A stretch of DNA of 64,000 nucleotides from Salinimicrobium xinjiangense DSM 19287 (lineage in GTDB: Bacteria > Bacteroidota > Bacteroidia > Flavobacteriales > Flavobacteriaceae), in NCBI RefSeq assembly GCF_000423585.1, contig NZ_AUIG01000008.1, positions 1 through 64,000 on the forward strand. The letters run 5' to 3'. The notes beneath the pieces are model-generated. The model had not been told where the DNA came from. It did not search any database and worked only from the letters and a program-made list of their open reading frames with translations. Of this stretch, positions 13,568 through 58,894 are shown piece by piece (the first letter of the stretch is position 1; each line of letters starts with the position of its first letter). A program made the translations under genes and the position numbers.

Positions 13568-13599
13568 TAAATACCACTAAAAACCAGCCACTTTTTGGA

Positions 13600-13732
13600 A
13601 TTGGAATTTGGTGCTTGGAAGTTACCGGTTGCGGGTTACGAGTTGCGGGCACGAAACAGAACCAAGATTCAAGATTTGTTTGAGTGAGCAATTCTGATTG
13701 GAATTTAGTGCTTGGTGCTTGAACCTTGAACC
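13600..13732. repeat. Intergenic repeat-word cluster
   Basis: Between the reductase and hisS (convergent ends) lie short words such as gcgggttacgagttgcggg, gattcaagat, gtgcttggtgcttg and gaaccttgaacctt. The same words recur near 325-385, 16470-16880 and 31800-31960. No hairpin terminator is obvious here. Confidence 0.55.
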
Positions 13733-15103
13733 TTAAACCAGTTTTGTAACCAACTCCTCAAGCGTAACAGCCGACTGCTCTCCTGTTTTCATATTCTTCA
13801 GGGTAAATTTGCTGTTTTCAATTTCCTCTGCACCTGCGAGAACAACAAATGGAATATCACGTTTATTGGCGTGAGCCATTTGTTTTTTCATTTTAGCTTC
13901 TTCAGGATAAAGCTCGGCAGCAATTCCGCCGGCGCGAAGTTCCTTAATAGCTTTAAGACAGTAAAGACTTTCTTTATTTCCGAAGTTGATAAACAGCGCC
14001 TGAATATTCCTAGCCACAGTTTCAGGAAAAAGACCTAGTTCCTCAAGCACGAGGTAGATACGGTCCAGACCAAAGGAGATTCCTACCCCACTCACGCCGC
14101 TCATCCCAAAGATACCCGTGAGATCATCGTAACGGCCGCCACCACCTATGGAGCCCATAGCGACACCTTCGGGTGCTGATACTTCAAATATTGCTCCTGT
14201 ATAATAATTGAGTCCGCGGGCAAGGGTGACATCAAGATCAAGGTTTGCGGTGTTTAGCTGCAGTTCCTGAATTGCACTATTGATGAATTCCAGTTCTTCT
14301 ATGCCTTTCCTCCCTATTTCTGAAGGCTCTAAAATGTCTTTTAAAACTTCGATTTTTTTTGAAAAGCTGCCTTTTAAGCCAAAAACCTTCTGGATTTTCT
14401 GAATAGCTTCAGAAGAGATCCCCTTCTCCTGCATTTCCTTCTTTACACCTTCTTCTCCAATCTTATCAAGTTTATCTAATGCGACAGTAAAGTCGATCAA
14501 CTTATCAGATTCTCCAATAACTTCAGCAAAACCTGAAAGGATCTTCCTGTTATTGATCTTAATAGTCACTCCTTTAAGATCCAGGGCAGTGAATACAGCA
14601 TCATACAGCTGTACAAACTCCACCTCCTGCCACAGGCTGTCACTTCCCACAACATCTGCATCACACTGAAAGAACTCTCTAAAACGCCCTTTTTGAGGCC
14701 TGTCTGCCCTCCATACCGGCTGGATCTGGTATCGTTTGAAAGGAAACTCAATTTCATTCCTGTGCTGCACCACGTAACGTGCAAAGGGAACAGTTAGATC
14801 ATACCGTAAAGCTTTCTCGCTAATAGAAGGAGTCAGCTTTATACTATCCTGTTGCGCATAGGCATCTGCATCGGCCTTCTTCAGGAAATCCCCGGAATTA
14901 AGGATCTTAAATATAAGCCGGTCGCCCTCCTCTCCATATTTTCCCATAAGAGTTTCGCTGTTCTCAAAACTTGGAGTTTCTATTGGTTGAAATCCAAACT
15001 TCTCAAATTGCTCCCTTATGTTTTGAATAATATAATTCCTTTTTGCTACTTCGGCCGGGGAAAAGTCCCGGGTACCTTTGGGAATGGAAGGTTTTTGCGC
15101 CAT
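13733..15103 (-). CDS. hisS: Histidyl-tRNA synthetase
   Basis: Class II aminoacyl-tRNA synthetase charging tRNA-His. Class II motif 2 is seen in the [19 protein letters not shown] region, the histidine motifs [14 protein letters not shown] and GGGRYDDL are present, and a C-terminal anticodon-binding domain (about 365-456) contains [12 protein letters not shown]. It is 456 residues, normal for Bacteroidota. It is transcribed alone from a promoter at 15127-15156. Confidence 0.97.
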
Positions 15104-16468: not shown

Positions 16469-16895
16469 AGTAGGCAGTAATTAGTTGGCAGTTTTTCTGT
16501 TACAGGTTTCTGGTTACAAGTCGCAGATTGTAGGTTTAGTGCCGCGGAGTTTTAAAACAATTTTACTGCCAACTTTAGACTGCCAACTGTTTACTCACAG
16601 TAATCAGTGGTCGGTGATCAGTGATTAGTCTTTTTGTGCCAGGGCTGCAGGTTGTAGGTTAATTATCGCGCAAGTTTGAACAATTTTACTGCCAACTTTA
16701 GACTGCCAACTGTTTACGCACAGTGATCAGTGGTCGGTGATCAGTGGTTAGTCATTTTTTGTTGCAGGTTGCAGGTTGCAAGAGTCGGGTTGCGGGATTG
16801 ACTTTTTCAAAGTCTTAAAATCTCTTTACTGCCAACTTAAAACTGCGCACTTCCGACTCACAAACCTTGGACCTTGGACTTTAAACCTTGAACCC
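16469..16895. repeat. 427-bp intergenic repeat cluster
   Basis: No coding region is seen. The gap is built of recurring words (ctgccaacttt, gactgccaact, ggtcggtgatcagtg, gcaggttgtaggtt, ttgcaggttgcagg, cttggaccttgg). A 75-bp block at 16556-16630 returns at 16679-16753 with about four mismatches (period 123 bp). Related words occur in other gaps of the window. Confidence 0.7.
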
Positions 16896-17369
16896 TTAGA
16901 GATTGAGGTGCTTCTCAAAGAATCCATACAATTCTCCTTTAGTAATAACAGCACCTTGCCGGATTAGTGCAAAAATATCTTTATTCCGGTCATCGCTGAT
17001 GTTCTTTGAAGAGGTGTAAAGCGAAACCCGGTCATCCATTAAATTCTGCTGTAGCCATGCATAGCCGTGGCGGGTGGTAACATCTACAGCTTCGTTCTCG
17101 ATCTTAACGGCAATAAGGTTAATAGTGAATTCTGTGATCTTAAAAAGGTAGATCTGGTTTGCCGATATATGCTCCAGGTATTGCGCCTGATTGAGCACGC
17201 CTTCCCACACCAGATCGCTAAAAACATCCAGTTCCTGCTCGGCCACTTCAGGTTTCTGCTCCTTGATCTCCTGCCATTCTGAAGCAGTAATAGACTGGCT
17301 CGCCAGGAAATTGATAAACTCCTGGTGCAGCTCTTCAAATTGTTCTTTTGTTAATCGGGAATATTTCAT
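16896..17369 (-). CDS. DUF6495-like protein of unknown function
   Basis: A 157-residue soluble protein. The beginning (KYSRLTKEQFEELHQEFINF) matches my memory of a small flavobacterial family annotated DUF6495. Features include acidic helices (about 40-60), a hydrophobic core KITEFTINLIAVKI and a C-terminal KGELYGFFEKHLNL. No catalytic motif is seen. It lies downstream of rplI on the same strand but is separated by a terminator and a repeat-bearing gap, so it is probably transcribed on its own. Confidence 0.75.
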   Translation of the reverse strand: MKYSRLTKEQFEELHQEFINFLASQSITASEWQEIKEQKPEVAEQELDVFSDLVWEGVLNQAQYLEHISANQIYLFKITEFTINLIAVKIENEAVDVTTRHGYAWLQQNLMDDRVSLYTSSKNISDDRNKDIFALIRQGAVITKGELYGFFEKHLNL

Positions 17370-17485
17370 ATTTAATGTAAAAGGTTTAAGGAATAAGGAA
17401 TAATGTAATTTGTATTAATTGCATATTCACTAATTCACTTTAATAAGACTGCCAACTTTCGACTGCTTACTGCCTACTCCATAAA

Positions 17486-19508: not shown

Positions 19509-21955
19509 GGATCCACATTTATTACCGTTTTTACTCCTCTATAAGCTCCAATAGCTTTAAAGCTTTGCAATATCCTGCTCACAAGCTCCTTTGTCTTTCC
19601 TAGTGACTGTTTCTGCGGAATCTTTATGAGTATGTTTTTATAATATTCATTTCTGATCCTGGCAATCGGAGGAAATTCCGGACCCAGCACATTTTCATGA
19701 AAGGAATTTTTAAGGGAAGTTGCCAGCCAGTCGGCTCCCTCATTGACTCTGGAAAAATCTCTTCCTTTCAGGGTTATTCTAATTAGCCTGTAGAACGGCG
19801 GATATTTATAATTTCTTCGCTCCTCCAACTGCTCCCTGTACATGTCATGGTAGTTGTTGGTAGAAACCTGCTGCACAATCTGATGATGCGGATTGTAAGT
19901 CTGAATAAGCACAAGTCCTCTCTTTTTTGTTCGTCCTGCCCTACCCGCTACCTGCAGCATTAACTGAAAACTCCTTTCATGCGCTCTAAAATCCGGAAAA
20001 TTCAGAAGGGTATCGGCATTCATGATCCCTACTAATCTTACATTCCGGAAGTCCAGACCTTTGGTCAACATCTGTGTGCCCACCAGAACATCAATCTCTT
20101 CCTCTTCAAAGGCCGAAATGATCTTTTCATAACCATGTTTGCCCCGGGTAGTATCGAGATCCATTCTGCCAATCTTATTACCCGGAAACAAGGCTTTTAG
20201 TTCGGTTTCGACCTGCTCGGTTCCAAAACCTTTTGTTGAGAGCTCAATACTTCCGCAAGCCATGCATTTTGTTTGCAGAGCCATATGATATCCGCAATAA
20301 TGGCAACGCAATTGGTTATTATGACTGTGATAGGTAAGACTCACATCGCAGTTAGGACACTGCGGGGAATGTCCACAGGTATTGCATTCCAGTATTGGAC
20401 TGAATCCTCGCCGGTTTTGGAACAGGATCACCTGCTCCCCGTTACTGAGGGTTTCCCTTATCTCTTCCAGCAAACGATCTGAAAAATGACCTGTCATTCT
20501 TTTTTTCCGGTGCTTATCCTTGATGTCCACGATCTTGATTTCCGGAAGAAGCATATTCCCATAGCGGCGATCAAGATTGACCAGGGCATATTTTGAATGG
20601 TCTGCATTAAAATAGGATTCCAAAGCCGGGGTAGCCGATCCCAGTAATACTTTTGACTTCATCATTTTTCCCAGTACTACGGCCAAATCCCGTGCATTAT
20701 ATCGCGGCGCGGGATCATACTGTTTAAAAGTAGATTCATGCTCCTCATCTACAATGATAAGTCCGAGCTCCTTAAATGGAAGAAAAATACTGGATCGCAC
20801 CCCAATGATCACCCGTGCCTTTTCTGTATTACGCAAGACATTTTGATACACCTCCACCCTCTCATTTACGGAATACTTACTGTGAAAAACCAGTACTTTC
20901 TCCCCAAAATAATTCTGCAGCCGAACGATAAGCTGGGTAGTAAGAGCAATCTCCGGCAGCAAATACAACACCTGCTTTCCTGAAGAAATCACTTTCTCAA
21001 TGAGATCTACATATATTTCTGTTTTTCCTGAAGAAGTGATCCCGTGAAGCAGGCACACATCTTCGGTTTTAAATGAGGTTTCTATCTCATCGAGGGCCTG
21101 CTGCTGGTGCTCATTAAATGCGACTTTCCCTGCCAACTCCCCTTCCTCATATTCAAATCGTGAGGCCTGCACTTTTATCTCCTCCAGCACCTGCTTATCT
21201 ATTAAAGCTTTAATAACAGCGGCAGAAGCTTTACTTTCTTTGGCTAGTTCTGAAATTTTCACAACTCCCTTGTTTTTGGCAGACATTCCAAAAAGGGTAA
21301 ATATCACCTCTCTTTGTTTTGGAGCCCGGCTAAGCTCATCCAGCAATTGATGCATAGCAGCTTCGTTGGAATAATTATCATGTAATTTTACATGTCGCTC
21401 GATCTTTGGCTTGTATTGTTCATAGATCTCCTGGTTCACTGCCACCACCCTTTTTTCAACAAGAGAGTTTATCACAGGCAACACAGTTTTCTTGTCCAGC
21501 AACTGAACAATTTCATTGATCTTAAGAGAAGACTGCCGTTGTAAGGCTTCAAAAAGCAGGAACTCATCATCACTAAGATTCTCTTCGTTCACCTCTGCTT
21601 CCTTTAGCAACTGCACAATCGTCTCACTCTCCAGTAGAAAAGCACTTGGTATTGCGGCTCTTAACACCTCCCCTTCTGTACACATGTAATAAGCAGCGAT
21701 CCAACTCCAGAACTTTAATTGAGCTTCCGTCACCACAGGGGTCTCGTCCAGTATCTGCTCTATGGGTTTCGCCTCATAGATCTTTGGATCGTTTTGATGT
21801 ACTTCAGAAACAATTCCGGTGTAGATCTTTGACTTACCGAAAGGAACGGCAACCCTCATTCCCGGCCTAAGGAAGTTAGCTTCAGCTTCAGTAACACTAT
21901 AAGTAAAGAGATTCTCTAAAGGCAGAGGCAGAATCACATTGATAAAAAAAGCCAT
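19502..21955 (-). CDS. priA: Primosomal replication restart helicase PriA
   Basis: Restarts stalled replication forks by loading DnaB. It is 817 residues: N-terminal DNA-binding domain (VILPLPLENLFTYSV), Walker A GITSSGKTE near 310, DEEH, and a zinc-binding insert with eight Cys at about 520-567 (CNTCGHSPQCPNC ... CHYCG ... CMACGS). The helicase motif VLVGTQMLTKGLDF and QVAGRAGR follow. A -7-like TAAATTTG lies on the minus strand at 21971-21978 just before the ATG, without a clear -33 element. Confidence 0.97.
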   Translation of the reverse strand: MAFFINVILPLPLENLFTYSVTEAEANFLRPGMRVAVPFGKSKIYTGIVSEVHQNDPKIYEAKPIEQILDETPVVTEAQLKFWSWIAAYYMCTEGEVLRAAIPSAFLLESETIVQLLKEAEVNEENLSDDEFLLFEALQRQSSLKINEIVQLLDKKTVLPVINSLVEKRVVAVNQEIYEQYKPKIERHVKLHDNYSNEAAMHQLLDELSRAPKQREVIFTLFGMSAKNKGVVKISELAKESKASAAVIKALIDKQVLEEIKVQASRFEYEEGELAGKVAFNEHQQQALDEIETSFKTEDVCLLHGITSSGKTEIYVDLIEKVISSGKQVLYLLPEIALTTQLIVRLQNYFGEKVLVFHSKYSVNERVEVYQNVLRNTEKARVIIGVRSSIFLPFKELGLIIVDEEHESTFKQYDPAPRYNARDLAVVLGKMMKSKVLLGSATPALESYFNADHSKYALVNLDRRYGNMLLPEIKIVDIKDKHRKKRMTGHFSDRLLEEIRETLSNGEQVILFQNRRGFSPILECNTCGHSPQCPNCDVSLTYHSHNNQLRCHYCGYHMALQTKCMACGSIELSTKGFGTEQVETELKALFPGNKIGRMDLDTTRGKHGYEKIISAFEEEEIDVLVGTQMLTKGLDFRNVRLVGIMNADTLLNFPDFRAHERSFQLMLQVAGRAGRTKKRGLVLIQTYNPHHQIVQQVSTNNYHDMYREQLEERRNYKYPPFYRLIRITLKGRDFSRVNEGADWLATSLKNSFHENVLGPEFPPIARIRNEYYKNILIKIPQKQSLGKTKELVSRILQSFKAIGAYRGVKTVINVDPY

Positions 21956-30455: not shown

Positions 30456-31793
30456 ATGACCTCTCTTCAGGCAATTTCTCCTATCGACGGCAGATATTCT
30501 TCCAGGACAAAAGCACTGGTAGATTATTTTAGTGAACAGGCTCTTATAAAATACCGGGTACGGGTGGAAATCGAATATTTCATTTCCCTTTGCGAGCATA
30601 ACCTGCCCCAGTTACAGGAAGTTGATCATTCAAAGTTTTCGGGACTAAGAAAAATTTACCAGGATTTTTCTACTGAAGATGCCTTAGAGATCAAGGAAAT
30701 AGAAAAAACTACAAACCACGATGTTAAGGCTGTAGAGTATTTTATAAAGTCCAGATTTGATGAGCTGGGGCTTTCCCGCTTTAAAGAATTCATTCATTTT
30801 GGGCTAACTTCCCAGGACATCAATAATACTGCAGTGCCTCTTAGCATTAAAGAAGCAATGGAAGAAGTTTACCTTCCAGCTTTGAACCAGGTATTGGAAA
30901 AACTGGAACAACTGGCACAGGACTGGAAAGAGGTTCCCATGCTTGCCCGCACGCATGGACAACCTGCATCCCCTACCCGACTTGGAAAGGAAATTAAAGT
31001 GTTTGTAGTTCGATTAAAAGAGCAGATCAAATTCCTCCAAAACATTCCCAATGCTGCAAAGTTCGGTGGTGCTACCGGAAACTTTAATGCTCATAAAGTG
31101 GCTTTCCCGGAAATTAACTGGAAAAACTTCGGAAAGGATTTCGTGGAAGGTTCTTTAGGCCTCCATCACTCCTTCCCTACTACACAAATAGAACATTACG
31201 ACCATCTGGCTTCACTCTTTGACGCTCTTAAGCGTATTAATTCAATCATCCTTGACCTTGACAGGGATATCTGGTCTTATGTCTCCATGGATTATTTTAA
31301 ACAAAAGATCAAAAAAGGAGAAGTGGGATCTTCGGCGATGCCGCATAAGGTGAATCCCATAGATTTTGAGAACAGCGAAGGAAATTTAGGGATTGCAAAT
31401 GCCCTTTTTGAACACCTTGCCGCCAAACTTCCTGTTAGCCGCCTGCAACGCGATCTTACAGACAGCACGGTACTGAGAATAGTAGGAGTACCTTTTGGTC
31501 ATACCCTGATCGCATTCTCATCTACTTTAAAAGGCTTGAATAAGTTGTTGCTGAATGAGGCAAAAATAGATGCAGATCTGGAAAACAATTGGGCCGTAGT
31601 CGCCGAAGCAGTTCAGACCATTCTGAGACGAGAAGGATATCCTAATCCCTACGAAGCTCTAAAAGGTCTTACCCGTACCAATTCACAGATAAATAAAGAA
31701 AGTATTTCGGAATTTATTGGTGAACTGGATGTTTCAGAAGAGATCAAAAAGGAACTCAGGCAGATCACTCCGCAGAATTATACGGGAATTTGA
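30456..31793 (+). CDS. purB: Adenylosuccinate lyase
   Basis: Fumarate-releasing lyase used twice in purine synthesis (SAICAR and adenylosuccinate). It is 445 residues, with SPIDGRYSSRTKAL at the start, ARTHGQPASPTRLGKE (catalytic His) and the superfamily signature GSSAMPHKVNPIDFENSEG in the mobile loop. It ends normally with QITPQNYTGI. A single gene with its own promoter, and a strong bidirectional terminator at 31964-32010 after a 170-nt repeat-word stretch. Confidence 0.97.
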   Translation: MTSLQAISPIDGRYSSRTKALVDYFSEQALIKYRVRVEIEYFISLCEHNLPQLQEVDHSKFSGLRKIYQDFSTEDALEIKEIEKTTNHDVKAVEYFIKSRFDELGLSRFKEFIHFGLTSQDINNTAVPLSIKEAMEEVYLPALNQVLEKLEQLAQDWKEVPMLARTHGQPASPTRLGKEIKVFVVRLKEQIKFLQNIPNAAKFGGATGNFNAHKVAFPEINWKNFGKDFVEGSLGLHHSFPTTQIEHYDHLASLFDALKRINSIILDLDRDIWSYVSMDYFKQKIKKGEVGSSAMPHKVNPIDFENSEGNLGIANALFEHLAAKLPVSRLQRDLTDSTVLRIVGVPFGHTLIAFSSTLKGLNKLLLNEAKIDADLENNWAVVAEAVQTILRREGYPNPYEALKGLTRTNSQINKESISEFIGELDVSEEIKKELRQITPQNYTGI

Positions 31794-31799
31794 AATAGG

Positions 31800-31960
31800 G
31801 TCAGTGATCGGTGATCAGTGATCAGAATGAAGTTAGAAGTACGATTTTAGAAGTATGAACTGATAACCGACTTTACAGTATGCAGTGCGAGGTCTCGCAA
31901 CTCGCGACATCCAACTTTACAGACAACAATGGTTTTGAAATTTTGAATCTTGAACCTTGA
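31800..31960. repeat. Intergenic repeat-word cluster after purB
   Basis: It contains gtcagtgatcggtgatcagtgatcag, split words such as gaagttagaagtacg, gtctcgcaactcgcgac and cttgaaccttgaac. These match words in the 16.5 kb, 13.6 kb, 40.4 kb and 57.6 kb gaps. It sits between a gene end and its terminator. Confidence 0.6.
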
Positions 31961-38331: not shown

Positions 38332-40164
38332 TTAAAATTTGAAGGTTAGTGAACTATAAAAAGCTCTTCCCGGCATTGGCCGGGAAGGCATACTTTGATA
38401 TTCGGTTTTGAAGATATTCCGCACTTCAATTCCCAGTTGAAGTTTCTGCTTCAAAAACTTGTAGTTTACTCCGGCGTTTGAAACCGTATACCCGGGAAGA
38501 GAATAATTATTATCTGAAGAAGTGTAGATTGTTCCATTGTAGAGAAATTGAAAGAAAGAACTAAATTTTCCATACCCATATCCGGCAGAAGCTGTTGCTT
38601 TGTGTTTGGGTACATAGATAAGTTCTTTATCAAGAGCCCGGTCGATAGCCCGCGTGTAGGCATAGGTTCCAAAAATGCTAAATTCCTGCCCTTTTAAATT
38701 CCTGTTCCAGTCCAGAGTTGTTTCCAGACCATAATTCCTGGCTTCTTTAGTATTATGAGGGATCCATTTTCCTCCACTTGAAGGAACCCAACGTAAGAGA
38801 TCTTCTGTATCAATTATAAATCCTGAGATGCTTACTCCCGCTCCAAAGATCCGGAGTTCCTGACCAATTTCTGCCTGCAGGGATTTCTCAGGTTTGAGAT
38901 CAGAGTTTCCACCGGCATGCCAAAACAGGTCATTAAAGGTCGGGATCCGGTAATTACGGGAGACATTTATTTTTAGGAGATAAGCTTCAGTGACTTCATA
39001 AACAGCTCCAGCCGAAAAGAGAATGGGAGAATCATAACTGTCAGAGAATTCTGCCCTTGCACTTATTTCGTACTTAAAGGGATACAGATCATGTGAAATT
39101 AAAACTCCTGCAGAGCCGGTTTCCCTTTTTTGAGAGCCTTCAATATTACTGCCTTCTCCTTCTGTCCTCTGAATTTCTAATAGCCCAGTCGCTTGAAAAT
39201 TTTCATTCACCGCATAGCTAAGATTATATTTTGCCAGTGCCGTTTCAGCTTTTCCAAAGGAATAAATATCCGAATGCCGGTTTTCAAAATACTTATACTC
39301 TTCCTCCAGGTAAGCTAGTTTCAGCCCCGAAACAAATCTTCCGAAATAGCTGTTCCACTCCAGGAGGTTTCGGCTGTTATAATCTTCATATTTGCTTTTT
39401 GATGCCATAGAGACTGTTCCCGAAAAGCCTCTGTCTCCGTTGTAATGGTTAGTGTAAAACTTCAGCGTATTGCTATTGTTGAGCAGATAGGCCACCGCCG
39501 CGCTTATACCGCTATTTTCATAATCTCCGTTCTGATTGTGTTTTTCAGAATCGGGATATGGAAAATCATTTTCATTGCTATGCCTGGAAACATTCAGCTG
39601 AAGGCTTAGTTCGTCTGATGAATATTCTGAATCTATATTCCCAAAAAAGGTATCAAAACTTCCGTAGTCAAGCCTCACTTTATTCCTGAAGCCAGTGCCA
39701 ATCCTGAACCTGTTGTTAAGATGTACACTACCACCTATGGCTCCACTCCCGTACAGCACTGATCCCCCACCAGACCTAACTGCGACACTTTCATAACCCG
39801 AAGTGAGGATGGTATTAAAATCTGTTTGGCCAGTGAACTGTGAATTGATATTGATTCCGTTCCAGACTACAGCAGTCTGTGAAGCGGTGGTTCCCCTAAA
39901 GGACGCCGAAGCCACCATCCCGGGGCCATTCTCCCTGAAGTAAAGCGGACTATTAAATTTTAGTACTGAAGTAAGGGCCGGAGCATTTTGCTCCAAAACC
40001 GAATCATTAAGCACCTGTACCAGGTGTGTTTTGGAATTGCGATATAGATGGATGTCGCTTAGTACCACCTCTTTCAGATATTGAACAGAGTCGAGTTGGC
40101 CGTACCCTTGAAGGGAACATAGCAATAGGGGTAATAAAATGTAGAAAATGCCTTTTTTCATCAT
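38332..40164 (-). CDS. btuB: TonB-dependent outer-membrane receptor, BtuB type
   Basis: About 610 residues, a small TonB receptor. A signal peptide (KKGIFYILLPLLLCSLQGYG) precedes the plug domain (about 45-150) with NAPALTSVLKFNSP, SASFRGTTASQTAVVWNGININS and GGGSVLYGSGAIGGSVHL. A 22-strand-like barrel rich in aromatic residues ends in FKF. The start is ATGATG at 40164/40161; an upstream frame to 40254 lies in the riboswitch. The riboswitch and neighbouring btuG-like and btuFCD genes point to cobalamin as substrate. Energy comes from TonB-ExbBD, not found here. Confidence 0.9.
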   Translation of the reverse strand: MMKKGIFYILLPLLLCSLQGYGQLDSVQYLKEVVLSDIHLYRNSKTHLVQVLNDSVLEQNAPALTSVLKFNSPLYFRENGPGMVASASFRGTTASQTAVVWNGININSQFTGQTDFNTILTSGYESVAVRSGGGSVLYGSGAIGGSVHLNNRFRIGTGFRNKVRLDYGSFDTFFGNIDSEYSSDELSLQLNVSRHSNENDFPYPDSEKHNQNGDYENSGISAAVAYLLNNSNTLKFYTNHYNGDRGFSGTVSMASKSKYEDYNSRNLLEWNSYFGRFVSGLKLAYLEEEYKYFENRHSDIYSFGKAETALAKYNLSYAVNENFQATGLLEIQRTEGEGSNIEGSQKRETGSAGVLISHDLYPFKYEISARAEFSDSYDSPILFSAGAVYEVTEAYLLKINVSRNYRIPTFNDLFWHAGGNSDLKPEKSLQAEIGQELRIFGAGVSISGFIIDTEDLLRWVPSSGGKWIPHNTKEARNYGLETTLDWNRNLKGQEFSIFGTYAYTRAIDRALDKELIYVPKHKATASAGYGYGKFSSFFQFLYNGTIYTSSDNNYSLPGYTVSNAGVNYKFLKQKLQLGIEVRNIFKTEYQSMPSRPMPGRAFYSSLTFKF

Positions 40165-40213
40165 CCGCAGGCTTTTTTCCCGAAAGCCGAAGGTTTTAAA
40201 TTGAGTGAAAAAT

Positions 40214-40480
40214 GGCAGGTCTCCTGGCTCGCGTCCTTTTGTTGACCTTCCCATCCCTTATGGAACAGTGGTATGAAGTGTACAAAAGGCATCCCAAATT
40301 CTCGGGACTAAGCTTACAGTTGCGGGAACAGCTCAGGCTTATACGAAGTACGAATTAAGAAGTACGAAATTAGAAGTAAATTTCTGCTTCTGTAAAACTG
40401 CTTCAGAATTTAAGTTATTGTACTTCGTAATTCTAACTTCGTACTTCTAACTTCAAATTCTCCTGATTCCCTTTTAATCG
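40214..40480 (-). promoter_or_regulatory. Cobalamin riboswitch (interrupted)
   Basis: Reading the minus strand: AAAAGGGAATCAGG (to 40462), then after an insert CCTGAGCTGTTCCCGCAACTGTAA (40337-40314, written as two overlapping words CCTGAGCTGTTCCC and CCCGCAACTGTAA), then CCACTG, GGGAAGG, and the B12 box GAGCCAGGAGACCTGCC ending at 40214. GGGAATCAGG pairs with CCTGA...TTCCC. All core motifs of the class I cobalamin element are present. A 124-nt insert (40338-40461) replaces the usual short peripheral loop. A small hairpin (GGCTTT/AAAGCC) lies between the B12 box and the btuB start. B12 binding would lower btuB-btuG expression. Confidence 0.88.
40338..40461. repeat. Repeat-derived insert within the riboswitch
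   Basis: 124 bp made of recurring words (gtacttcgtaattctaacttc, split as gtacttcgtaattc and taacttcgtacttc; acgaagtacgaattaag; agtacgaaattagaagt). The two halves are roughly inverted, so the RNA can fold into one long imperfect hairpin. gaagttagaagtacg also occurs in the gap after purB (about 31830). Composition is AT-rich with no coding capacity. Confidence 0.65.
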
Positions 40481-40580
40481 ATGTCTTTTCTTTCTGAAAT
40501 TATCAGAAAACAATCGAACCAAAATTCAGTACGAAAGTAAACATTTCAATTTATACAGCTCCCAAAAAATTAAATAATCT

Positions 40581-47652: not shown

Positions 47653-47659
47653 AGTAGAA

Positions 47660-48063
47660 ATGGTTAAAACCATTCCTGCCCGGAGATGCTCTATAACCAC
47701 GGGTTAAAACCCGTGGCTAAGATTACCGAGGAGATAAATATCACGAATAACTTTTTATTCTTTCTGTAGTTAATAGCACGTCTCTGGTAATATGGTCTTT
47801 GTAAAAAAAAGGCGGGTGCCGGAGGAGAATATTTCCTGATCTAATTAATTCCTAAATAGTCAAAACTATTTTTATACTAATTTACTTATAGCCACAGGTT
47901 TAAACCTGTGGCTATAAGAAGGTGGAAACCTGTATTTCACAATTTTCAGATATGAAGTTGAAAATGAGTGATTCAATCTTTTTTCCTAAATTCATTCATA
48001 GCCCCGGGTTTTAACCCGGGGTCACGAGAACAGTTATTATTATCAAAACCGTTTCAACGGTTT
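47660..48063. repeat. Left REP-like palindrome cluster
   Basis: Five short palindromes fill the gap before the transposase: ATGGTTAAAACCAT (47660-47673); CCACGGGTT-AA-AACCCGTGG (about 47697-47716); a perfect 34-bp palindrome CTTATAGCCACAGGTTT plus its complement (47885-47918); CCCCGGGTT-TT-AACCCGGGG (48002-48021); AAACCGTT-TC-AACGGTTT (48046-48063). All share a GGTT...AACC core. The other DNA in this 430-bp gap looks non-coding. Confidence 0.85.
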
Positions 48064-48086
48064 ATACACCTAAACAAATTTCCATT

Positions 48087-48518
48087 ATGGGTCATTCGTT
48101 TAATAAAATATGGGTTCATACTATTTGGTCAACCAAAGACCGGCAACCATTGATAAATTTTCCCTTTGAAAATGAAATACACGAATATATTGATCAACAA
48201 TTTCGGGAAGTAGGTTGTCCTGTGAGAATAATAAATGGAATGCCCGATCATATCCACTGCTTGTTTTTGCTCAACCCACAGAGATCTATTTCAGATGTTA
48301 TTAAGCAAATTAAAGGAAGTAGTTCTCATTATATTAATCAGAACAATCTCATACCTCAAAAATTCTCATGGCAAACAGGATATGCTGCCTATTCTGTTTC
48401 TGAATCGGTATTAGAGAAAACTTTTTCCTATATCCGGAACCAGAAGCTGCATCATCAGAAGAAATCATTCCAGCAGGAGTATGAGGAATTTTTGAAGCTT
48501 TACGGATTTGAGAATTAA
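48087..48518 (+). mobile_element. IS200/IS605-like (RAYT-type) transposase
   Basis: A 143-residue Y1 transposase. The HUH motif is His55-Ile-His57 in GMPDHIHCLF, and the likely catalytic Tyr115 lies in SYIRNQKLHH. WSTKDRQPLI near the start and SFQQEYEEFL near the end match the IS200-like family. It is a single-domain, single-copy gene, surrounded by palindromic REP-like elements rather than IS ends, so it is best seen as a REP-associated tyrosine transposase (RAYT) rather than an active IS. The reading frame is intact. Confidence 0.9.
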
Positions 48519-48570
48519 TAGATACTACTGAAATAAATTCCGGTTTAAACAATTGACTCACCTGTTTATA

Positions 48571-48852
48571 AATGGTTAAAACCATTATTACCCGCAATTT
48601 CTCTATAACCACGGGTTAAAACCCGTGGCTATAAAAAACCAGGCTGAGAAAATAGTTTAAAGCAATGTAAATGGCGTCCCATTGTTAACTGCACCACATT
48701 TTACCGCTTTTGGTGATCTTAATCTTTGCTGAAAAATGGGCCAAGCGGCCATAGAGAGAGAAAATCTACAGGCTAAATAAAACTTCCTATAGCCCCGGGT
48801 TTCAACCCGGGGTCAGGAAATATTTGGTATAATCAAACCGTTTCAACGGTTT
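48571..48852. repeat. Right REP-like palindrome cluster
   Basis: Four palindromes in the same order as on the left: AATGGTT-AA-AACCATT (48571-48586); CCACGGGTT-AA-AACCCGTGG (48609-48628); CCCCGGGTT-TC-AACCCGGGG (48793-48812); AAACCGTT-TC-AACGGTTT (48835-48852). The middle 34-bp palindrome of the left set has no partner here. No gene is seen in this 340-bp gap. Confidence 0.85.
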
Positions 48853-57595: not shown

Positions 57596-57626
57596 CAAAG
57601 ATACCAACTTTTAATCAATGTACAAT
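57596..57626 (-). promoter_or_regulatory. Promoter of mtaB
   Basis: On the minus strand ATTG (57623-57626), a 19-nt spacer and TATCTTTG (57596-57603), giving a leader of about 80 nt. The leader also holds a short hairpin (CTAAAATGATATTTTTAG type, 57571-57590). Confidence 0.65.
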
Positions 57627-57720
57627 TATCAGGTTCAATGATCAATGACCAATTAACAATGAACAGTAATTATTTGATTTTAAATCTTCTGATCATTGAT
57701 CACTGACCACTGATCACTAT
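57625..57720. repeat. Intergenic repeat words
   Basis: Words tcaatgatcaatgacc, aacaatgaacagt, gatcattgatcactgacc and actgatcact are related to the gatcagtgatcag family of the 16.5 and 31.8 kb gaps. They lie between the GlmU-like gene stop and the mtaB promoter. Confidence 0.5.
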
Positions 57721-57721
57721 T

Positions 57722-58894
57722 TTACTCCCGTCTGTACTTCTTAGTGTCGTCAAAAACCTGATCCAGGATCGCTTTATCCTGTTCAGAAAATTCAATGTCC
57801 CTCCTTGCCATTACTTTTTCAGCTACTTCAAACGCCTTAACTGTCTTATAAGTAGTTGTACCTCCACTTCCACCCCAACTGAAGCTGGGAATGAAATTCC
57901 GTGGAAAACCGGCGCCAAAGATATTTGCACTAACTCCCACGACAGTCCCGGTATTGAACATGGTGTTTATTCCGCATTTACTATGATCTCCCATCATGAG
58001 TCCACAAAATTGCAAGCCTGTGGGCGCGAATCTTTCGGAATAATAATCCCATAAACGCACATCTGAATAATCATTTTTCAAATTAGAGGTATTGGTATCT
58101 GCTCCAAGATTGCACCACTCTCCCAAAACTGAATTTCCGAGGAAACCATCATGTCCTTTGTTAGAGTATCCAAAAATGACAGAATTGTTAACCTCTCCTC
58201 CAACTTTCGAATATGGCCCAACTGTGGTAGATCCGTAGATCTTTGCACCCATTTTTATAATACCTTGCTCACACAGTGCAAAAGGCCCGCGAATTATACT
58301 TCCCTCCATCACTTCGGCATCTGCCCCAATGTAAATAGGACCTCCAGAAGCATTTAATATGGTGCACTCCACCTTCGCTCCCTCCTCTAAAAATATATTT
58401 TCGGGTGCGATCACCTGGTTTGTAGAGGAAAGCTTCTGGCTCTTCCGGTGTTCTGTTAGCTGCTCAAAGTCGGCGGCGATCGCCTCTGCATTGAGTCTAA
58501 AAATATCCCAGGTATGCTCGACCATCATAGCTTTTCCTTCCATTTCAATGGAGGTACATTTAGCAAATTCGACATCCTGTTCTTCATAAGCATGAAAAGC
58601 AACTACATCCTCCTCGTGAAATATGGCTTCTCCCGGCTGCAGATTCTTTATTTGTTCGACCAGCTCGGCTGTGGGTAAAAAAGCAGCGTTAATCATCACA
58701 TTTTCTTCCATCTCTACCATAGGCCATTTCTCAGATAAATAGTCTTCAGTGATAGTAGAGGTGGTTGTATTGAGATATTTCTCCCATTTCTCACGAATAG
58801 TAAGAATACCAATTCTTATATCGGCTACAGGACGAGTGAAGGTAAAAGGCAGTAACTGGGTACGCACGGCCCCGTCAAATAATATATAGTTCAT
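57722..58894 (-). CDS. GlmU-like protein (putative sugar nucleotidyltransferase with left-handed beta-helix)
   Basis: A 390-residue protein of the Bacteroidota GlmU-like family. The N-terminal half (about 1-170) starts NYILFDGAVRTQLLPFTFTRP; the usual pyrophosphorylase loop (LAAGxGTRM) is absent. The C-terminal half (about 175-350) has hexapeptide repeats of a left-handed beta-helix (GPIYIGADAEVMEGSIIRGP, GAKIYGSTTVGPYSKVGGEV). It may bind or modify a nucleotide sugar, but activity is uncertain. Confidence 0.85.
   Translation of the reverse strand: MNYILFDGAVRTQLLPFTFTRPVADIRIGILTIREKWEKYLNTTTSTITEDYLSEKWPMVEMEENVMINAAFLPTAELVEQIKNLQPGEAIFHEEDVVAFHAYEEQDVEFAKCTSIEMEGKAMMVEHTWDIFRLNAEAIAADFEQLTEHRKSQKLSSTNQVIAPENIFLEEGAKVECTILNASGGPIYIGADAEVMEGSIIRGPFALCEQGIIKMGAKIYGSTTVGPYSKVGGEVNNSVIFGYSNKGHDGFLGNSVLGEWCNLGADTNTSNLKNDYSDVRLWDYYSERFAPTGLQFCGLMMGDHSKCGINTMFNTGTVVGVSANIFGAGFPRNFIPSFSWGGSGGTTTYKTVKAFEVAEKVMARRDIEFSEQDKAILDQVFDDTKKYRRE

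Follow-up and report, generated by a model that had tools for sequence, protein, structure and literature searches.

According to the accessible part of Barrick and Breaker (2007; PMC2258182), loop L4 of the cobalamin riboswitch is canonically a T-loop, in which a U and an A close a GNR triloop and two bulged 3' nucleotides follow; a helix can interrupt the triloop of this P4 T-loop, and "variable insertions" are mentioned. In an intron of a different phylum, the tRNA-Leu (UAA) group I intron of Nostoc, the P6b stem consists of degenerate 7-nt repeats of Class I and Class II (PMC4476775, accessible part), and intergenic TAACTGA heptamers have been described for Beggiatoaceae, cyanobacteria, and five Bacteroidetes (PMC4679880, accessible part). 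Already known are, then, the riboswitch, the permissive T-loop site, and the occurrence of helices within the T-loop. In work attributed to Vioque (1997), STRR repeats with a unit of 7 nt were reportedly found within cyanobacterial RNase P RNA; as at the locus studied here, these are short tandem repeats in a functional RNA gene, whereas the RNA and the phylum differ.

This locus lies in a stretch of 64,000 nt of Salinimicrobium xinjiangense DSM 19287, referred to as the window. With the riboswitches of PMC2258182 it shares the aptamer, the B12 box, and a helix that interrupts the P4 T-loop triloop, but the L4 insert consists of genome-type heptamers in an array that reaches 154 nt and has two hairpins, a repeat make-up that the accessible part of that article does not mention. 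The parallels with the Nostoc P6b stem (PMC4476775, accessible part) are degenerate heptamers, a peripheral stem of a structured RNA, length variation, and two vocabularies at one place; that case, however, is a cyanobacterial intron, whereas ours is a metabolite riboswitch of the Bacteroidota with two adjacent hairpins. The TAACTGA repeats are likewise dispersed intergenic heptamer arrays in Bacteroidetes, but they consist of one fixed word, lie mostly just before start codons in the main genome described, and the term riboswitch is absent from the accessible text (PMC4679880). The closest parallels are the Nostoc intron P6b and the cyanobacterial RNase P RNA. A search of the open-licence literature gave no description of a riboswitch loop with heptamers, and what appears to be new is the composition from heptamers, the partial agreement with the repeat words of each genome, and the recurrence.

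A predicted cobalamin riboswitch upstream of a btuB-like gene

The riboswitch and the elements around it were assigned as follows.

40197..40538, minus strand: cobalamin (B12) riboswitch aptamer, full-length RF00174 (cmscan, 80.7 bits, model positions 1-189)
40214..40230, minus strand: B12 box GAGCCAGGAGACCUGCC (sequence and RF00174 match)
40462..40466, minus strand: P4 5' arm UCAGG (RF00174 alignment)
40333..40337, minus strand: P4 3' arm CCUGA (RF00174 alignment)
40323..40328, minus strand: L5 UUCCCG, complementary to a downstream CGGGAA hairpin loop (sequence)
40170..40188, minus strand: possible expression-platform hairpin GGCUUU-CGGGAA-(A)AAAGCC (sequence), with its end five bases upstream of the ATG (40164)
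38332..40164, minus strand: btuB-like gene for a TonB-dependent receptor, starting at the first ATG 3' of the riboswitch (open reading frame; Pfam plug and barrel)

The score of the match compares with a gathering score of 31.5, its longest insertion is L4, and it is the only RF00174 match found in the 3.76-Mb genome of 45 contigs. Both the B12 box and the conserved core CCCGCAACUGUAA are present, and judged by its sequence the window RNA is a cobalamin riboswitch whose core is intact. The initial annotation, made from the DNA letters, had claimed such a riboswitch with its core motifs and B12 box, a 124-nt insert, and a core left intact by it; the single high-scoring, whole-model match on the minus strand bears this out, and L4 spans exactly 40338-40461. 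Its 124-nt gap between the stem arms also stands, but the longer pairing that it gave these arms does not: in the RF00174 alignment P4 is only TCAGG/CCTGA (40466-40462/40337-40333), GGG belongs to P3, and UUCCCG (40328-40323) is L5.

By complementarity, the C-rich L5 and the CGGGAA outside the core form a candidate pseudoknot, and hairpins of the GGCUUU-CGGGAA type also lie 3' of the riboswitches of relatives at the loci examined. A perfect 5-nt complement of L5 within the next 90 nt was found for 92 of 128 parsed riboswitches, the window's included, and was missing in 36. The riboswitch is probably of the translation-controlling type. The best NCBIfam match of the receptor is the vitamin B12 receptor TIGR01779 (E value of 8.6e-32; 110 bits, below the cut-off of 600). 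Divergent from the riboswitch and receptor are two genes, which encode a periplasmic binding protein and a permease of the FecCD type; the best NCBIfam match of the permease is BtuC, again below the cut-off, and its relatives in Salinimicrobium genomes are 78 to 89% identical.

The L4 insert consists of degenerate heptamers

40338..40461, minus strand: expanded loop L4, 124 nt, heptamer-repeat insert (RF00174 alignment; periodicity z of 6.7, p of 0.001)
40338..40344, minus strand: L4 3' remnant GUAUAAG with the conserved T-loop A (position of A across L4 loops)

The insert is a degenerate array of the heptamers GAAGTAC and GAAGTTA and their complements. On the RNA strand, the first third of L4 reads GAAGUUA GAAGUAC GAAGUUA GAAUUAC GAAGUAC, and the last third is made of complementary heptamers. 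In the 21 L4 loops of at least 60 nt, identity at lag 7 was 0.474 versus 0.297 in mononucleotide shuffles (18.7 standard deviations), and pooled over 38 L4 segments of at least 45 nt it was 0.468 versus 0.237 to 0.314 at lags 3 to 6 and 8 to 13. The remaining aptamer, when pooled, has no excess at this lag (0.273 in 128 segments; 0.208 in 19 segments). Against dinucleotide shuffles, 30 of the 41 L4 loops of at least 40 nt were periodic at p < 0.005, the window's with a z of 6.7; many of these loops come from relatives and are not independent. Eleven were not periodic at this level, though some appear so by eye: L104, L117, L133, L217, L223, L233, L238, and L246, together with L108, L234, and L236 at p values of 0.005 to 0.014. 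Both traits of the Nostoc stem, seven-nt periodicity and a stem of complementary repeats, are found in the insert, the stem in predicted folds and in pairing across species. Weak Rfam matches within the insert (snoZ39, mir-254, and MIR8562) were far below cut-off and were discarded.

The site itself was compared across loops. All 54 L4 loops of 7 nt start with U and have A in fifth position; among the 73 loops of at least 17 nt, A is third from last in 72 and the first U is present in 46. The 7-nt loops match a T-loop and the long ones keep its A, and the heptamers therefore sit at a site already known to tolerate a helix. The window L4 retains the T-loop A but has an A in place of the first U, and so departs from the canonical T-loop.

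Long L4 loops in Salinimicrobium and other Flavobacteriaceae

All 12 Salinimicrobium genomes searched have an RF00174 match, and in 11 of them L4 measures 104 to 154 nt at the same place. In the remaining one, G009 (74% complete), L4 measures 17 nt, and a tblastn search of 13 kb of this locus detected no such permease. G002 has, in addition, two riboswitches whose L4 is short (about 7 nt). The initial annotation had proposed a dispersed repeat in a loop that tolerates length change and had left open whether it had landed there or grown. Dispersion and tolerance are both borne out, a local or recent event is not: the same-loop versions of 104 to 154 nt in 11 of the 12 genomes contradict a recent landing in the window. 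Long loops shared by all relatives had been named as evidence against an insertion if they were unrelated; the loops are indeed long at the same place, but they are alignable heptamer arrays. As many intermediate L4 lengths occur in relatives, growth from the loop fits better than one clean insertion.

In the family, 102 of 118 genomes drawn have an RF00174 match. From the 131 matches listed in this survey, we took the sequences of 54 (those of at least 214 nt plus one of 211), two of Salinimicrobium besides, and five more from a separate search; nine records duplicating genus genomes were left out of the counts. The 128 parsed riboswitches, which include relatives and are biased toward long ones since only long matches were taken, have an L4 of 7 nt, the commonest length, in 54 cases, of 8 nt in one, and of at least 17 nt in 73. 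Among the named relatives, L4 is 7 nt long in 15 of the 17 Flavobacterium-clade entries, in Gelidibacter, Winogradskyella, and several others, and 17 to 120 nt long in Salegentibacter, Christiangramia, and Gillisia. A heptamer-periodic L4 occurs in at least 10 of the 102 riboswitch-bearing genomes, from nine genera (G000, G001, G016, G025, G048, G061, G078, G083, G098, and G120), a lower bound because the sequences taken were those of long matches.

Relatives of the locus were sought with the BtuC-like permease; a BtuB protein query of genome contigs returned no relative. Pattern parsing yielded no riboswitch at 15 of 91 loci, in one of which (L144) cmscan finds one. On a tree of 68 permease sequences, a quick tree with 27 of its 65 inner branches drawn open, the heptamer state of L4 requires at least 10 changes (gains or losses). 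Locus L126 was entered by its second riboswitch (L4 of 39 nt) and not by the permease-adjacent one of 7 nt; neither has heptamers, and the count is unaffected.

A Christiangramia metagenome-assembled genome, LH_M82, has an L4 insert (L116:2740-2874) whose identity to that of the window is 86% across 118 aligned positions, with Christiangramia-like flanks. It shares its isolate prefix with the Salinimicrobium metagenome-assembled genome LH_M86. Transfer of the whole riboswitch from Salinimicrobium was not supported, since the locus is closer to Christiangramia in 24 of 24 segments compared; its insert may reflect common descent or local transfer.

Comparative pairing favors two adjacent hairpins

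40405..40461, minus strand: insert hairpin 1, with outer arms that covary across the genus (pair table, permutation p of 5e-5)
40345..40404, minus strand: insert hairpin 2 (GAAG...CUUC), weak in the window species (permutation p of 0.002 to 0.003, arm length of 12, 12 sequences)

The insert had been predicted to fold on itself as a long imperfect hairpin. Folded alone, it is more stable than its shuffles (z = -3.9; 1 of 100 as stable), and so is the insert together with P4 (z = -4.5; 0 of 200). Its predicted minimum is a single rod with an 18-bp run, at -31.6 kcal/mol for the window RNA alone versus -23.7 kcal/mol for two hairpins, and in each of the 12 species the whole loop reaches a lower minimum than the two hairpins summed. 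The long hairpin is thus the free-energy minimum of the window sequence, but pairing across species favors two adjacent hairpins instead.

When 10 inserts were aligned without a guide, RNAalifold missed the two hairpins and gave a double change in 2 of 19 predicted pairs. We attribute this to misaligned registers of the heptamer arrays and therefore used an arm-swap test on the 11 Salinimicrobium inserts and L116. For the outer arms of hairpin 1, pairing energy was -9.0 kcal/mol within species versus -4.3 between species (p of 5e-5), for the arms of hairpin 2 it was -5.9 versus -4.4 (p of 0.002), and for the rod arms -3.6 versus -4.2 (p of 0.94); the species are related, which makes these permutation p values too small, and with 6 representatives they are 0.002 to 0.008. 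With arms of 8 to 15 nt and 12, 9, or 6 representatives, p ranged from 0.0002 to 0.003 for hairpin 1, from 0.0002 to 0.014 for hairpin 2, and from 0.23 to 0.93 for the rod, the boundary between the hairpins having been chosen after inspection of the folds. Among the nine outermost positions of hairpin 1, all but the third have double changes that keep the pair; the first is A-U in seven sequences, G-C in four, and a mismatch in one. Genome G001 breaks this hairpin. These data support two adjacent hairpins, apparently kept by compensatory change, and the rod has no such signal.

Folds more stable than shuffles are predicted for all 12 of these loops, 11 from Salinimicrobium and that of L116 (z of -2.9 to -6.2). 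Over 40 heptamer segments from L4 and the second loop described below, the mean fold z is -3.0, with 12 not below -2, and the L4 loops of L220, L129, L236, L240, L206, and L167 fold no better than shuffles (z of -0.3 to -0.9).

Heptamers in a second riboswitch loop

Between CCACUG and GGGAAGG lies a peripheral-domain loop that is at least 40 nt long in 23 of the 127 riboswitches in which it was parsed, and 8 of these 23, all from Flavobacterium, are heptamer periodic. On the permease tree this state requires at least seven changes. In a phylum-wide draw, 108 of 109 genomes had an RF00174 match; among 20 long matches, this loop was parsed in 15 and measured at least 40 nt in 6. Four of the six come from one other family (f14), with p values of 0.001 in three and 0.009 in one and fold z values of -3.7 to -8.0; L264, from the same family as the window, has a p of 0.002 and a z of -3.8, and the long loop of L268 is not periodic. 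L4 was parsed in 9 of the 20 and is long, at 70 nt, only in L263. In four loci of a Bacteroidota family other than that of the window (L251, L252, L260, and L261), heptamer hairpins were seen in the peripheral-domain loop.

Repeat words elsewhere in the genomes

That the insert and other gaps have words in common, as initially noted, is confirmed by the intergenic-looking gap 31824-31859. The pattern of GAAGT heptamers has 27 overlapping matches in the genome, three of them in the window L4, and the reversed control has none. The other arrays are mostly of single orientation: at 14 of the 16 other GAAGT-array loci, no array of opposite orientation lies within 300 nt. Outside the riboswitch, an inverted pair thus exists at 2 of the 16 loci when arrays up to 300 nt apart are counted, and at 1 of 16, with a weak match, when the limit is 150 nt. 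At L073, a weak opposite-array match lies 27 nt away. At L077 (contig C28, array 19904-19927), the opposite array starts 135 nt away, forming a long inverted repeat with no riboswitch.

Across the genus, GAAGT matches number 7 to 38 in G000, G001, G003, G006, and G007 and 3 to 5 in G004, G008, G010, and G011, some of these being L4 itself; none were found in G002, G005, and G009, of which G002 and G005 nonetheless carry the insert. Four Salinimicrobium genomes were tried for the GATTTAC pattern, and none has a match. Five genomes with a GATTTAC-type L4 were also tried; four have the word elsewhere (G120, 18; G098, 12; G260, 11; G219, 4), and in G078 the only match is its own L4. Two Flavobacterium genomes with a GATT-type L4 have 13 and 14 GAAGT matches, and for GATT words G258 and G259 did not give a clean reversed-pattern control. 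The L4 vocabulary thus partly follows the lineage and the genome's own repeat words.

Interpretation of the insert

We favor, with a probability of roughly 0.7, a cobalamin riboswitch whose L4 T-loop is interrupted by an ancestral, self-closing array of genome-type heptamers, mostly a tolerated passenger. Direct support comes from the riboswitch match, the insert, its heptamers and their dispersion, the place shared in the genus, the compensation between arms, and the recurrence in other lineages. The array would have entered or grown in L4 in the ancestor of the genus or earlier and would have grown by gain and loss of seven-base units. Mainly self-closing hairpin forms would have been retained, presumably by selection: as such arrays allow the two ends of the loop to meet, P4 and the last nucleotides of the T-loop could still be brought together. 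Both B12 sensing and regulation of the receptor gene, by kissing of L5 with the downstream loop, would be unchanged, and the insert itself is probably passive.

A serious, though less probable, alternative is that the paired arms are a by-product of quasi-palindrome correction at the DNA level, by template switching during replication of inverted heptamers, the loop being neutral space. Heptamer arrays suit template switching, and both the perfect 15-bp arms of G003 and the inverted pair at L077, outside any riboswitch, are what such a process could leave. Against it stand the 14 of 16 other GAAGT loci without an inverted partner within 300 nt, a small sample with two exceptions, and the recurrence of inverted heptamer arrays in another loop of the riboswitch, both in Flavobacterium and in a distant family.

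It is rather improbable that the insert has become a second RNA domain that tunes receptor expression, for instance as a site for a protein, sRNA, or RNase or as a switch between two hairpins and rod. Long retention in the genus, even where other GAAGT arrays are few or absent, compensatory change in both hairpins, and the competition of two folds would fit such a role. Within the genus, however, L4 length varies from 104 to 154 nt, Christiangramia and Salegentibacter include loops down to 17 and 21 nt, and the invariant positions are largely heptamer words and the outer flanks, no other motif being evident by eye in the alignment. Slightly less probable still, and offered as speculation, is that peripheral loops of Bacteroidota cobalamin riboswitches are recurrent sinks that capture the dispersed heptamers of each lineage and domesticate them as structured domains of the RNA, with competing two-hairpin and rod folds that adjust the B12 response.

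A single MITE-like mobile element with defined ends that landed once in L4 is very unlikely. The inverted arms and the words common to other gaps recall one, but neither the largest repeats of the window nor the other GAAGT-array loci examined, where arrays differ in length and words, include a long copy of the insert, and L4 has intermediate lengths. Least likely of all is a decayed riboswitch broken by the insert: the first T-loop U has become A in the window, but B12 box, L5, and complementary downstream loop are kept there and in the other ten insert-bearing Salinimicrobium loci.

The locus offers a natural repeated experiment in which repetitive DNA is taken into a structured regulatory RNA, at one site and with many lineages, words, and length intermediates. 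It links the little-studied degenerate heptamers found in Bacteroidota with a functional RNA, and riboswitches join the Nostoc intron as a place for such repeats. Should the insert prove passive, it would provide a measure of aptamer tolerance; otherwise it would represent a new way of adding a domain.

Other repeats and riboswitch matches

Several further observations were made. (i) Elsewhere in the window, strong seven-base periodicity marks eight further stretches, whose words vary; periodicity with words different from those of the insert was seen at 317-386, 13591-13756, 16715-16916, 17343-17444, 31784-31873, and 57606-57731. (ii) At 16523-16862, a 123-bp unit is repeated 1.8 times and is itself built of heptamer-like words (ACTGCCA and AGTGATC types). 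(iii) Six Salinimicrobium genomes contain seven short RF00174 matches (L014-L018, L020, and L021) of 120 to 132 nt and 27 to 55 bits; six of the seven have the core TTGCGCAACTGT, and they are possibly a compact variant. (iv) No heptamer array was seen by eye in the RNase P RNA of the own genome; its gene (L190, C8:65507-65857) has two copies of a palindrome of the TCCCGAGT.CTCGGGAT type at different places. (v) A repeated hairpin of another kind, a 42-nt repeat of the palindrome type CCACGGGTT..AACCCGTGG (families D2 and D5), occurs in five copies within 1.2 kb at 47655-48821 of the window.
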